The translations under genes and the position numbers were made by a program. The notes under the pieces are model-generated. The model did not search any database. It was not told the DNA's origin and saw only the letters and a program-made list of their open reading frames with translations. A DNA stretch of 36,011 nucleotides, taken from Magnetococcales bacterium (GTDB lineage Bacteria; Pseudomonadota; Magnetococcia; Magnetococcales; JADGAP01). Shown here in pieces: positions 22,793-27,650 of this stretch (within the stretch, counting starts at the first letter, position 1; each line of letters starts with the position of its first letter). The stretch lies in NCBI GenBank assembly GCA_015231965.1, contig JADGAP010000014.1, positions 1 to 36,011 on the forward strand. Reading direction: 5' to 3'.

Positions 22793-24379
22793 TCAGTAGC
22801 GGATCTGCCGCACTTCCAGCACGTTGGTGACTTGGGCGAGGCGATCCATCACCGCTTGCGAGGCCTCCTGGTCGGTGTTGATGAAGGCGATGGCCCGGCC
22901 GCCGACGTGGTCGCGGCCCAGGTGGAAGTTGGCGATGTTGATCCCCGCCTCGCCGAGGATCGAGCCCACCCGTCCGATGAGGCCGGGGGCGTCCTGGTTG
23001 GCGATGAAGAGCATGTTGCCCTCCGGCGCGGCCTCGATGGGGATGCCGTCCATCTCCACCAGCCGGGGCTGTTCGCCGTAGAGCAGGGTGCCGGAGACCG
23101 AACGCTGCCTTTTATCGCAGATGACGGTGGCGGTGATCAGCGAGGTGAAGCCCCGTTGCGCCCGGGGTTTGGTGGAGACATCCATCTCGATGCCCCGCTC
23201 CTTGGCGATGACCGGGGCGTTGACCATGTTGACCCCCGGATCCAGCATCGGAGCCAGGATGCTCTTGAGAATGGTGGTGGTGATGGGCATGCGGTTGAGG
23301 TCCGCCACCTCGCCCTCGTAGGCCACCTCGATGCGCTTGACCCCGGTGGTGGCCATCTGCCCCAGGGTGGTCCCCAGCTTGTCGGCCAGGTTGAGGTAGG
23401 GGCGCAAGATCGGCAGCTCCTGCTCGGAAACCGACGGAATGTTGACTGCGTTCTGAATCGTCCCCTTGAGCAGATAGTCGGCGATCTGCTCCGCCACCTG
23501 CACTGCCACGTTGACCTGCGCCTCCTTGGTCGAGGCCCCCAGGTGGGGGGTCAGCACCACGTTTTCGTAGCCGAACAGGGGATGCTCCTGGGCCGGCTCC
23601 ACCTCGAAGACGTCCAAGGCGGCGGCGAAGACCTTGCCCGAATCCAGGGCCGCTTGCAGCGCCGCCTCGTCGACGATGCCGCCCCGAGCGCAGTTGACGA
23701 TGATCACCCCTTTTTTCATCCGGGCGAAGGCGTCGGCGTTCACCAGATGGCGGGTCTTGGCGTTGAGCGGGGTATGCAGGGTGAGCAGATCGATGGTCGG
23801 CCAGAGATCCTCGGGGGTTTCGGCCACCTCGACGCCCATCTCCTCGGCCCGCTGGCGGGAGAGGAAGGGGTCGTAGACCATCACCCGCATCCCCAGGGCC
23901 TTGCACCGCTCCACCACCAGCGCCCCGATGTTGCCCGCGCCGATTACCCCCACCGTCTTGTGATAGAGTTCCACCCCCATGAAGCGGTTTTTCTCCCACT
24001 TGCCCGCCTTGGTCGAGGCCGTGGCCGCCCCGATTTGACGGGCGGCGGCCATCATCATGGCGACGGCGTGTTCGGCGGTGGTGATGGAGTTGCCGAAGGG
24101 GGTGTTCATGACGATGATCCCCCGCTTGGAGGCGGCGGGGATGTCCACGTTGTCCACCCCGATGCCCGCCCGCCCGATCACCCGCAGCCGACCGGCGGCC
24201 TCCAGCAGTTCGGCGGTGAGCTTGCTGGCGGAACGAATAGCGACGCCGTCGTATTCGCCGATGATGGCCTTGAGTTCAGCGGGAGGAAGGCCGGTCTTGA
24301 CCTCCACCTCCACCCCCCGCTTGCGGAAGACCTCCTCGGCCAGGGGGGACATTTTATCGGCGATAAGCACTTTCGGCAT
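22793..24379 (-). CDS. serA: D-3-phosphoglycerate dehydrogenase
   Basis: A 528-residue long-form SerA, the first enzyme of serine synthesis, oxidising 3-phosphoglycerate with NAD. The nucleotide loop is GVIGAGNIG (about 144-152). Catalytic residues are Arg232 in NCARGGIVDE, Glu261 in DVFEVEP and His279 in TPHLGAST. Residues after about 315 form the intervening domain, and the C-terminal ACT domain (from about 455) contains GNMLFIANQDAPGLIGRVGS and GINIANFHLGRD, the site of serine feedback in this class. The ATG at 24379 has AAGGA eight bases upstream; the open frame before it is unlike the family. Confidence 0.96.
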   Translation of the reverse strand: MPKVLIADKMSPLAEEVFRKRGVEVEVKTGLPPAELKAIIGEYDGVAIRSASKLTAELLEAAGRLRVIGRAGIGVDNVDIPAASKRGIIVMNTPFGNSITTAEHAVAMMMAAARQIGAATASTKAGKWEKNRFMGVELYHKTVGVIGAGNIGALVVERCKALGMRVMVYDPFLSRQRAEEMGVEVAETPEDLWPTIDLLTLHTPLNAKTRHLVNADAFARMKKGVIIVNCARGGIVDEAALQAALDSGKVFAAALDVFEVEPAQEHPLFGYENVVLTPHLGASTKEAQVNVAVQVAEQIADYLLKGTIQNAVNIPSVSEQELPILRPYLNLADKLGTTLGQMATTGVKRIEVAYEGEVADLNRMPITTTILKSILAPMLDPGVNMVNAPVIAKERGIEMDVSTKPRAQRGFTSLITATVICDKRQRSVSGTLLYGEQPRLVEMDGIPIEAAPEGNMLFIANQDAPGLIGRVGSILGEAGINIANFHLGRDHVGGRAIAFINTDQEASQAVMDRLAQVTNVLEVRQIRY

Positions 24380-24530
24380 GGCGACGTTCCTTGGAGAGGG
24401 TGCGTGGTCAAAGGCGAAACCATCCCCCCGCCCGGAAACCCTCGCGGCCCGGGGGGACAAGACGTTGCGTGCGGCCAACACTCCCGACGGCCCGCCCGAG
24501 GGGCGCGGACCGTCGCTGGAATGACTCGGG

Positions 24531-24824
24531 TCAAAAGGGCCGCATCAGGGAGAGGGGAGCGCCCGCCCCGATGAGCAGTTCCTTGGCGTCCTGGGCATAT
24601 TGGGGGATGATCCCAAGCAGGAGGACGGTAATCACCCCCACCCCCAGAATGATGGCGATCCGGGCCATCCGGGTAAAGGCGGGAGAGCGCCAGACCAGGG
24701 GGATGGCCAGGGGGCCGGTCAATAAAATCGCCATCCAGATCACCGCCGGACGCAAATGCCAGGGCGTTGGCGCGGGAGCGGACGGGGGGGAGTCGTCGGA
24801 TGACGGACCGGGATTCCGGGTCAT
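24531..24824 (-). CDS. small two-helix membrane protein, unknown
   Basis: A 97-residue protein with a Pro/Ser-rich N-terminus (about 1-22) and two hydrophobic segments, about 27-45 (AVIWMAILLTGPLAIPLVW) and about 54-74 (IAIILGVGVITVLLLGIIP). I do not recognise a named family. GGGAG lies seven bases before the ATG at 24824, and codon use matches the neighbours, so it is probably expressed. It precedes serA by about 150 bases on the same strand and diverges from thiD. Confidence 0.7.
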   Translation of the reverse strand: MTRNPGPSSDDSPPSAPAPTPWHLRPAVIWMAILLTGPLAIPLVWRSPAFTRMARIAIILGVGVITVLLLGIIPQYAQDAKELLIGAGAPLSLMRPF

Positions 24825-24980
24825 GAAGCATCTCCCAGGGAGGGGCGCTCCGGTGAAGGGCCAGGGGGCGCTTCAAGGCGACGCGAACCATCCCTGGAAT
24901 GATATCTCATTTTACGTTGAAGGAACAGACGGCGGCGCGGTTTCCCCGTCGAGGCGTCCTGGAAAAAAAAGGGGAGGGAG

Positions 24981-25799
24981 ATGATTCCACGGGTCTTGAT
25001 CGTCGCTGGTTCGGATCCCATCGGGGGGGCGGGATTGCAGGCGGATCTGCTCACCGTCACCCATCTGGGCTGCCTGGGCATGACCGCCGCCACAGCCATC
25101 ACGGTGCAGGACACAAGCCGGGTCCAGGCGGTTCATCCCCTGCCGGCGGCGTGGGTAAGTCAACAAATGGCAGCCTGCCTGGAGGATGTGGGGGCGGATG
25201 TCATCAAGCTGGGAATGTTGGGCGACGGGGCGGTGGTCGAGGCGGTGGCGGCGATGCTGGAACGACATCCCACCATTCCGGTGGTGGCGGATCCGGTGCT
25301 GGCGGGAACCGGCGGCGGGGCGCTGCTGGACGGGGCGGGCCGCCGGGCGCTGCTGGAACGGCTGCTGCCCCGGGTGACGCTGCTCACCCCCAACCTGCCG
25401 GAGACCGAAGCCCTCACCGGGCTGCCCACCCGCACCCGCCCCCAACGGGAGGCGGCGGCCCGTCGCTTGACGGCGATGGGGGTGGGGGCGGCGCTGCTGA
25501 AGGGGGGGCACGCCGCCGCATGGGATGACGGCGAAACCAGCGGGGAGACGACAACGGGAGAGATGGCGGACCTGCTGTGGGAAGGGCGGGAGATGCGCTG
25601 GTTTTTCGCCCCCCGGCTGGACAACGGCCCCTGGCACGGCACGGGGTGCATGCTGGCCGCAGCGACGGCGGCGGGGCTGGCCCGGGGGCTGGCCCTGGTC
25701 GAGGCGGTGGAACTGGGCCGCCGCACGGTGCGCCAAGGGATGATCCACGCCCTCGCCGCCGGGAGAGGACAAAAATTACTCCGCCCCTGGGGCGAGTGA
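24981..25799 (+). CDS. thiD: hydroxymethylpyrimidine (phosphate) kinase ThiD
   Basis: A 272-residue ribokinase-fold enzyme phosphorylating HMP and HMP-P in thiamine biosynthesis. The N-terminal motif VLIVAGSDPIGGAGLQADL is typical; the usual Ser before GGAG is Ile here. Other landmarks are ATAITVQDT, DVIKLGMLGDGAVVEAVA, VVADPVLAGTGGGALLD, LLTPNLPETEALTG and the anion-hole motif WHGTGCMLAAATAAGLARG. A purine-rich GGGGAGGGAG runs directly up to the ATG. It stands alone on the plus strand between divergent and convergent neighbours, with no other thi genes nearby. Confidence 0.93.
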   Translation: MIPRVLIVAGSDPIGGAGLQADLLTVTHLGCLGMTAATAITVQDTSRVQAVHPLPAAWVSQQMAACLEDVGADVIKLGMLGDGAVVEAVAAMLERHPTIPVVADPVLAGTGGGALLDGAGRRALLERLLPRVTLLTPNLPETEALTGLPTRTRPQREAAARRLTAMGVGAALLKGGHAAAWDDGETSGETTTGEMADLLWEGREMRWFFAPRLDNGPWHGTGCMLAAATAAGLARGLALVEAVELGRRTVRQGMIHALAAGRGQKLLRPWGE

Positions 25800-25856: not shown

Positions 25857-26510
25857 TCAGACGATCTTTTTCAACGATTGGGCGATTTTGTCCGACATGT
25901 TGTAAATTTCGTCGATCACCCGTTCGATGTCGGCGGCCAGATCCCGGGCCACCCGGGCGGTGGTTTTGACCTCCCCCGCCACCACCGCGAACCCCTTGCC
26001 GAAATCCCCCGCCCGGGAGGCCTGGATCCCGGCGTTGATGGCCAACACTTCCAATTCGTTGGAAATTTTTTCAATGCCCAGCAGCGTGCGGGAGACATCC
26101 CGGGTATTGCGGTCGATCTCCTGACGGATGCCGCTCATGTCCTCGTAGACCTGCTTGTTGACCTCCTTGCGATGTTCATCCAACACCCCGATGAACACCT
26201 GGGCGGTCTCGCCGCTGATCAACTCGCCCCGGCTCTTGACCCGGGTGATAAGATCCCGCACCCCCTGGTTGCCCGTGGCTTCGATGATGATATCCACGGG
26301 ATCGGTCTTGAGGGCCGTCTCCACGTTCGTCAACGCCTTGACGCCCAGGGTGCGGGCCAACTGCATCCCGGGGGCCTCATTGTTCTGGTCCACCACAAAG
26401 ACGACCCGGGTCATGCCCCCTTGGGAAAAAAGTTGCAACAATTTCTCCCCGCCGCCGCTGCCGCCCACAATGCCCACCGTCTTGTTCTGCACGTTTTCCA
26501 TCGCCGTCAT
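25857..26510 (-). CDS. soluble Rossmann-like domain fused to a chemoreceptor signalling tip
   Basis: A 217-residue protein with no membrane segment. Residues 10-100 look like a dinucleotide-binding Rossmann domain: TVGIVGGSGGGEKLLQLF, a second strand ending VVFVVDQNN, then VDIIIEATGNQGVRDLI. Residues about 110-217 form a short helical hairpin of the methyl-accepting chemotaxis type, with tip LEVLAINAGIQASRAGDFGK followed by GFAVVAGEV. In enteric receptors the matching tip reads NAAVEAARAGE; here the Glu contacting CheA/CheW is Gln163. A cytosolic sensor of NAD(P)H or another nucleotide, reporting to a CheA/CheW array, is a reasonable inference. It diverges from the PilZ gene. The start codon has only a weak GGGTGA site. 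Confidence 0.8.
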   Translation of the reverse strand: MTAMENVQNKTVGIVGGSGGGEKLLQLFSQGGMTRVVFVVDQNNEAPGMQLARTLGVKALTNVETALKTDPVDIIIEATGNQGVRDLITRVKSRGELISGETAQVFIGVLDEHRKEVNKQVYEDMSGIRQEIDRNTRDVSRTLLGIEKISNELEVLAINAGIQASRAGDFGKGFAVVAGEVKTTARVARDLAADIERVIDEIYNMSDKIAQSLKKIV

Positions 26511-26819: not shown

Positions 26820-27650
26820 ATGGCGATAGAACGGGGGAAAATGCTCAGTTTGCTCGACGTCTCTGGCGCCGTCCAGGAACCGGAGGCGATCCAGCGTTTT
26901 ATCCATACCGCCCTGCTGGATCACGAAGCCGTCGAGGTAACGCTGGACGACCATCCGGAGTCCTTCCACTGTTTTTTCATGGACTTTCATCCGGAAGTCG
27001 AGGGGGAGGCGACGCCCTATCGCACCGGGTCGTATTTGGAAGACCAGGAATTCCTTCTCACCACGCCGATGGAACCGGCCAAGGGCAACGCCATGATCCG
27101 CCGCGTTCAGACGGTGAAAATCCGCTTCAACGAGGGGCAGATGGGGTTGCGGGGGGAGGTGCGTTTTCTTGAAGTGGTGGCGGTGGCGGGGGCGCGGGCC
27201 CTCAAGCTCTCCTTTCCCGACAAGTTGGTGAAGTTTCAGGAGCGCAAAAGTTCCCGAGCCAAGGTGACCGACGGTCTGGTGCTCAAGGCCCATGTGCAGC
27301 GCACCGGCATCGACCCCTTCGAGGCGGATGTGGCGGATATCAGCATGTACGGCCTCTCCTTCCTTTATCCCGATGAAACCACGGAGATCGCCGATGGCAA
27401 ACGGGTGCAGATGGAGATCCGCTCGGCGGACCTGGGAACCCTCACCCTTTTCGGCGCGGTGCGCAATCAGGTCAAATCCCGGGACGTGACCGACATCTAC
27501 GCCGCCCGGCGCAAATGCGGTGTGCAGTTTGAGGAGACCTTCGCCGCCACCCTGCAAAAAAAGCTTGAGGCCCTGGTCAAGATGGTGGAACAGCGTCACC
27601 AGCAGGCGATGCAGCGCAGCAAGATGCGGTTCATGACCCGTGGCGGCTGA
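26820..27650 (+). CDS. PilZ-domain protein, probable c-di-GMP receptor (YcgR-like)
   Basis: A 276-residue cytoplasmic protein in two parts. Residues about 20-135 form a YcgR-N-like beta domain. The PilZ domain starts at about 140 with the RxxxR motif RKSSR (142-146) and continues to the D/NxSxxG motif DISMYG (173-178), the two c-di-GMP-binding elements, both intact. YcgR-like proteins slow or steer the flagellar motor when c-di-GMP rises, which suits a genome with a FliM/FliN switch, but the target is not shown here. A GAGAGGGA site precedes the ATG. The SDR gene overlaps its last 11 bases. Confidence 0.9.
   Translation: MAIERGKMLSLLDVSGAVQEPEAIQRFIHTALLDHEAVEVTLDDHPESFHCFFMDFHPEVEGEATPYRTGSYLEDQEFLLTTPMEPAKGNAMIRRVQTVKIRFNEGQMGLRGEVRFLEVVAVAGARALKLSFPDKLVKFQERKSSRAKVTDGLVLKAHVQRTGIDPFEADVADISMYGLSFLYPDETTEIADGKRVQMEIRSADLGTLTLFGAVRNQVKSRDVTDIYAARRKCGVQFEETFAATLQKKLEALVKMVEQRHQQAMQRSKMRFMTRGG

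Follow-up and report, generated by a model that had tools for sequence, protein, structure and literature searches.

A putative soluble mini chemoreceptor with a Rossmann head and an altered tip in Magnetococcales

Introduction

To our knowledge, soluble chemoreceptors that read the interior of the cell are poorly understood, and many of them have no known ligand. A gene at positions 25857..26510 on the minus strand of a 36,011-nucleotide stretch of DNA from a Magnetococcales bacterium (contig JADGAP010000014.1 of assembly GCA_015231965.1; the whole stretch is called the window here) encodes a protein of 217 residues and raises the question of what so small a protein might sense and to which partner it might report. 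The initial annotation, made from the sequence, described a soluble protein in which a Rossmann-like domain, resembling those that bind dinucleotides, precedes a very short MCP hairpin, suggested a role in redox or energy taxis, and called for structure prediction and for a search of other genomes. Soluble chemoreceptors as such are already known; what is new here is a mini form that has a Rossmann head, lacks methylation sites, and carries a tip altered in a fixed way.

The gene and its predicted structure

The open reading frame starts with ATG, comprises 217 codons and has no internal stops. The orthologues begin at an ATG that corresponds to residue 4 of the window protein, and a Shine-Dalgarno-like GGGTGA, read by eye, is located 6 bases upstream of the first ATG. 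Thus, both starts are possible, i.e., position 26510 for a protein of 217 residues or, as in the orthologues, position 26501 for one of 214 residues. Since the same architecture is kept in 33 of 48 Magnetococcales genomes (see below), a chance origin of the reading frame is excluded. The hydropathy of the protein, averaged over 19 residues, reaches a maximum of 0.78; hence, a transmembrane segment is absent, and the protein is soluble, as had been proposed.

Pfam recognizes the C-terminal half of the protein, where MCPsignal matches residues 119-215 (E-value 7.7e-19; 68.6 bits at a cut-off of 34.6), the match covering only positions 15-111 of the 172 in the profile. In residues 11-95, matches to Rossmann families are weak and below cut-off (GFO_IDH_MocA, 0.0017; Semialdhyde_dh, 0.0019), with GFO_IDH_MocA scoring 19.4 bits against a cut-off of 24. 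An NCBIfam search agreed with this picture, and phmmer found confident matches in the PDB to the MCP part only.

An AlphaFold2 model built on 32 orthologues (model numbering is that of the window protein minus 3) had a mean pLDDT of 90.0 and a pTM of 0.62. Strands and helices alternate up to model residue 96 and are followed by a helix from 97 to 213. Model residues 5-103 align on the NAD domain of an acetaldehyde dehydrogenase (4lrs_B; Z 12.8, 94 residues, 1.5 Å). Residues 97-214 align on a soluble receptor of Thermotoga (3g67_B; 118 residues, 1.7 Å) with a Z of 12.0, which, like any value below ~13 for helical bundles, may reflect just a common arrangement, so that the MCP assignment is carried by the sequence match. 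From residue 115 onward, the model also aligns on the tip of E. coli Tsr (6s1k_E; 100 residues, 1.4 Å), and these two alignments indicate that the long helix turns back on itself to form a hairpin. As predicted, the protein is thus a Rossmann fold followed by an antiparallel helical hairpin: an input module of residues 10-99 (26214..26483, minus strand), for which VIA-align gave Z-scores up to 12.8 to NAD domains, and a hairpin of residues 100-216 (25863..26213, minus strand). The model and the structural alignments support both halves and, together with the MCPsignal match, bear out the architecture originally described.

Known proteins resemble one or the other half. The NAD domain of the acylating acetaldehyde dehydrogenases (4lrs, 1nvm) has the same fold as the head, with a profile match of 1.3e-7, but the catalytic domain of these enzymes is absent from the window protein, and the second glycine of its glycine loop is changed. 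The Thermotoga maritima receptor 3g67 is likewise a soluble MCP hairpin, but its solved chain of 212-213 residues has no Rossmann head. When the model was compared with the PDB by Foldseek, the best match was 9a72_A, an integrative model of YfmS with CheW (E 2.1e-4). B. subtilis YfmS is also a soluble receptor, and the hairpins align over 119 residues at 1.4 Å; however, at 286 residues YfmS is ~70 residues longer, and the comparison concerns the hairpin. YfmS is referred to in the literature as another soluble chemoreceptor (PMC7542364). PMC10090944, which probably is the publication behind the YfmS-CheW model, mentions neither YfmS nor CheW in its main text.

Distribution and conservation

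The hairpin was used as the query against 61 genomes at a threshold of 1e-14; 48 of them, the genome of the window included, are members of the order, an assignment that rests on named orthologues and MamK. Matches were found in 33 of the 61 genomes, all inside the order, in frames of 215-292 residues. Among the order members with at least 90% completeness and at most 5% contamination, 21 of 27 contain the gene (counted by hand from the table of genomes). It is absent from all seven genomes of one genus (g17), from four of the five of one family (f9), and from four further genomes (G005, G009, G013, and G045). A first-look search found 10-52 MCP-like candidates in each g17 and f9 genome without the gene, and thus its loss does not equal a loss of chemoreceptors. 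At 23 of the 27 named loci, the relatives belong to Magnetococcales MAGs (51-61% identity); the other four are from Syntrophomonas, another member of the Bacillota, Lachnospiraceae, and Eubacteriaceae. The genome of the window has a single copy, its 27 other matches being ordinary MCP tips (29-38% identity for those at or below 1e-5), and 16 matches to the CheW domain. A single genome, G011, additionally contains a divergent, fast-evolving copy (L122, 1307-2041) with 61% identity in the hairpin.

The search that had been called for also extended the architecture to the Bacillota, where a mini form of 222-246 residues is present in 9 of 13 genomes of one order (L146, of 233 residues, L147, of 232, and L177-L185). 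These proteins resemble the window protein in length, in layout, and in a Leu at the equivalent of T375 (Tsr numbering, see below), but they have Glu at 385 in 9/9 and an intact GxGxxG, and their hairpin is much less conserved. Two of them (L183 and L184) carry a 3-residue insert exactly at the turn, the length of which does not vary among the other tips of the comparison. In a hairpin tree, L146, L147, and the Magnetococcales proteins form one group apart from 46 others (SH-aLRT 100), a grouping that is indicative, since it is based on few alignment columns and the branches are long. In a tree of the Rossmann part, L146 and L147 share one side with the Magnetococcales proteins and most GGDEF fusions (SH-aLRT 97). 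Longer soluble Rossmann-MCPs of the Bacillota (279-337 residues; L138, L149, L151, and others) have the same module followed by an MCP hairpin, but their arms are longer, their tip is canonical with Glu at 385, and their GxGxxG is intact. For a model of one of them, L151, the YfmS-CheW model is also the best PDB match (32% identity over 167 columns).

The two halves of the protein are conserved to very different degrees. Among 32 distinct orthologues, 8 positions are invariant in residues 1-95, none in residues 96-118, and 61 in residues 119-217, and pairs of orthologues are on average 48% identical (at least 29%) over residues 7-98 vs. 91% (at least 69%) over residues 119-217. Judging from the alignment, it is the hairpin rather than the sensor that selection holds, a point absent from the initial annotation. 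Perhaps, then, the hairpin is the working part, a soluble component that tunes the size, stiffness, or kinase coupling of the CheA array, and the head is vestigial or a handle for dimerization or a partner. The imbalance in invariant columns (61/99 in the hairpin vs. 8/95 in the head), the extension of conservation along the two arms to regions far from the tip, and the combination of fixed unusual tip residues with a drifting ligand site (see below) would all fit. However, the head is predicted to fold well, three of its residues (G13, G16, and Asp41) are the same in 32/32 orthologues, and a hairpin profile found no free-standing copy among 398 same-phylum genomes at 1e-16: orthologues score at least 186 bits, one paralogue 139 bits, and the next matches, in frames of 381-811 residues, at most 66 bits. 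Overall, this reading is considered rather unlikely.

The hairpin tip

The tip is nearly invariant over residues 146-189 (25944..26075, minus strand). It was compared with 46 canonical tips, of which the own genome contributed 19 and Bacillota relatives 27, and among which are duplicate pairs; positions are given in what we take to be Tsr numbering, set by anchoring the motif. The equivalents of N381, R388, G390, G393, G395, F396, V398, V399, A400, and E402 are unchanged in 32/32 orthologues, so that most tip residues are present, with E385 and A387 as exceptions. The E385 equivalent is Glu in 46/46 canonical tips and Gln in 32/32 orthologues; the Gln163 for Glu that had been noted in the window protein (codon CAG, 26022..26024, minus strand) thus proves to be a fixed property of the Magnetococcales orthologues. 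Likewise, the orthologues have in 32/32 cases Ser for A387 (Ala in 46/46 canonical tips), Gly for A383 (Ala in 40/46), Leu for T375 (Thr in 44/46), and Glu for Q374 (Gln in 41/46). An ionic lock between E385 and R388' of receptor trimers is described in PMC8144572, and half of this pair is left in the orthologues: the Arg stays, and the Glu is gone. With E385 replaced by Gln and A387 by Ser, ordinary receptor trimers may not form; in the reading preferred below, the Magnetococcales proteins are a sub-type of their own, and their altered tip (E385Q, A387S, A383G, and Glu-Leu for Q374-T375) probably makes separate teams instead.

A strict methylation consensus, which we take to be the appropriate motif, was found in 0/32 orthologues vs. 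15/18 MCP frames of the own genome. Loss of the trimer-contact Glu and of recognizable methylation sites might suggest that the protein is a receptor-like regulator that does not belong to the CheA pathway, with the hairpin serving as a protein-binding coiled coil. Tls, reported in PMC12623472 to regulate flagellar gene expression in E. coli, offers a precedent, and the turn insert in two Bacillota mini forms likewise speaks for this alternative. However, if the usual partners were missing, the presence of most conserved tip residues in 32/32 orthologues would be difficult to understand, and we regard this alternative as very improbable.

The Rossmann module and its ligand

The window protein has a glycine loop, G16-G-S-G-G-G21 (26448..26465, minus strand), in which Ser takes the place of the second Gly of GxGxxG. 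Nevertheless, G20-G21 is present, and so is EATGN after β4 (residues 77-81; 26268..26282, minus strand), the second part of the nucleotide site, which varies in the orthologues. Asp41 at the end of β2 (26388..26390, minus strand), presumably the usual position for binding the NAD ribose, is found in 32/32 orthologues, 32/32 Bacillota relatives, and 17/18 other same-phylum relatives. A complete GxGxxG occurs in 12/32, 32/32, and 16/18 of these sets, and its combination with the T/S-G/N pair after β4, with Ala allowed at the third Gly, in 9/32, 32/32, and 13/18; the sequences being related, these figures are counts and not tests.

The possibility that NAD(H) binds to the module and that the NAD(P)H or NAD redox ratio sets the state of the hairpin, thus serving energy taxis, has to be considered in this light. 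The closest folds are NAD-binding domains, profile matches include, besides the acetaldehyde dehydrogenases, the Rex redox repressor (0.004), Asp41 is invariant, and both motifs are present in all 32 Bacillota relatives and also, as read by eye from the alignment, in the nine Bacillota mini forms. In contrast, the incomplete motifs of most orthologues, the Ser of the window protein, and the occurrence in whole orthologue clades of GADKDG loops, or of a lost T-G after β4, are difficult to reconcile with such a sensor, as loops like GADKDG would be unfit for a diphosphate in the classical way. Of the dinucleotide-binding claim, the Rossmann fold and the invariant Asp41 stand, whereas the motif does not hold across the orthologues; with GxGxxG intact in only 12/32 orthologues, redox or energy taxis is a guess, and we regard it as improbable. 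For the family as a whole, the fold is indicative of a dinucleotide, and the data suggest that the site is relaxed in the Magnetococcales branch. Since it has drifted, the ligand there may differ from the NAD(H) expected from the fold.

The same module is found on other proteins. A profile of it (A2), whose weak matches include true dehydrogenases, matched in 116 of 398 same-phylum genomes at 1e-6 and in 60 of 199 genomes of the Syntrophomonas phylum at 1e-9. The best whole-module match was 2.5e-36, but the top two (L074 and L075) are themselves rows of the profile; from outside these rows, L146 matched at 4.4e-30 and L115 at 2.2e-22. Of 20 same-phylum places fetched, two (L131 and L132) resemble acetaldehyde dehydrogenases and were left out. 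In 15 of the remaining 18, the module is fused to GGDEF, PAS-GGDEF, or GAF-kinase-REC-GGDEF; two are short and stand alone (L126 and L127), and one is the paralogue L122, the architectures of proteins outside the domain scan being read by eye. Two of the GGDEF fusions, those of G009 and G011, are from Magnetococcales. The Bacillota set (L135-L170, with the fragments L140 and L142 excluded) contains, besides the soluble MCPs and two mini forms, MCPs of 491-523 residues with an unassigned middle and PAS-sigma54 proteins of 568-626 residues. Pfam confirmed GGDEF, GAF-kinase, PAS-sigma54, and MCP partners on ten representatives from both phyla, and gave for the module itself just a marginal match to GFO_IDH_MocA or similar.

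Since the same module heads MCP, GGDEF, GAF-HisKA-REC, and PAS-sigma54 proteins, it is an input module, and the mini receptor is a member of a wide family, which the initial annotation had missed. This family extends beyond the Magnetococcales and is apparently undescribed: text searches of open-licence papers, as far as their text was accessible, returned no description of the module, and the accessible portion of a paper on Magnetospirillum receptors (PMC12442639) mentions neither Rossmann, NAD, nor Magnetococcus. Many small-genome same-phylum relatives of family f18 (L115-L134) have 1-4 Rossmann-headed proteins each, those read being GGDEF or kinase proteins. In a Syntrophomonas genome (G398, C27; L140/L142), a Rossmann-MCP gene looks interrupted, with the halves of the module in different short frames.

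Genomic neighbourhood

A divergent gene for a PilZ-domain protein adjoins the mini receptor gene (26820..27650, plus strand; Pfam), as originally described. The functional link proposed for the pair did not hold up: with the PilZ protein as query, tblastn gave no match in any of 23 named orthologue loci, of which some extend less than 5 kb on one side. In the same loci, ThiD was found in one and SerA in two, and clustering of their open reading frames yielded no partner common to all. The serA and thiD genes are located downstream of the mini receptor gene in the window (22793-25799); a faint shared neighbourhood is seen in L062, where both lie within ~5 kb of the orthologue, and in L072, with serA. 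No che gene is present among the window neighbours examined. A search for a flagellar sigma28 promoter, using what we take to be its consensus, upstream of the 32 orthologues gave best scores no better than those of shuffled sequences.

A link to magnetotaxis was considered and rejected. MamK is over cut-off in 46 of the 61 genomes, including six of the seven g17 genomes, which lack the mini receptor gene; hence, the two do not track each other. The own genome (G000) encodes MamK at C110:20828-21829. A separate MreB match was not found in this 96% complete assembly, and many relatives show a second actin-like match.

Proposed function and implications

The reading we prefer, and to which we give about even chances, is that of a soluble, dimeric, non-methylated mini chemoreceptor that reports a cytoplasmic, lineage-variable signal through CheW and CheA. 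The N-terminal Rossmann module would bind a small molecule in the cytoplasm, the resulting change would pass via the helix leaving the last Rossmann strand into the hairpin of ~67 + 46 residues, and the tip of a presumed dimer would dock on CheW/CheA, alter the kinase output, and so affect the motor. As HAMP, membrane segment, and methylation sites are all absent, adaptation by CheR and CheB would not occur, and the report of the internal state would be steady and unadapted. The chemoreceptor reading is favored by the MCPsignal match over cut-off, by the tip residues kept in 32/32 orthologues (N381, R388, G390, G393, G395, F396, V398, V399, and E402), by the retention of the gene in 33/48 genomes with a hairpin at 91% identity vs. 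48% for the Rossmann part, by the 16 CheW-domain matches in the own genome, and by YfmS-CheW as the best PDB match. Against it stand the exchanges of E385 for Gln and A387 for Ser, the presence of both ligand motifs in just 9/32 orthologues, the absence of the gene from genera rich in chemoreceptors (0/7 in g17), and the lack of che genes among the neighbours examined.

A bolder proposal, which we advance as a speculation with the odds well against it, is that magnetotactic cocci use this methylation-free mini receptor as a fixed, diffusible modulator of the CheA array, which forms its own teams via the E385Q/A387S/A383G/Q374E/T375L tip, that the ligand of the head changes per lineage, and that the head is a general, unnamed metabolite-sensing module that bacteria use for chemotaxis, c-di-GMP synthesis, histidine kinases, and sigma54 activation.

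Being small and without membrane part, HAMP, and methylation, the protein could serve as a minimal system in which to examine the control of CheA by a receptor tip, and its fixed Gln where 46/46 canonical tips have Glu is a natural experiment on trimer contacts. Seven PAS-sigma54 activators of the Bacillota (L154, L157, L159, L162, L163, L167, and L170) carry the same Rossmann head, and a ligand found for one of these would inform all. If the module binds one class of metabolites, a ligand could be guessed for many proteins (MCPs, diguanylate cyclases, kinases, and sigma54 proteins) that have heads without a Pfam name.
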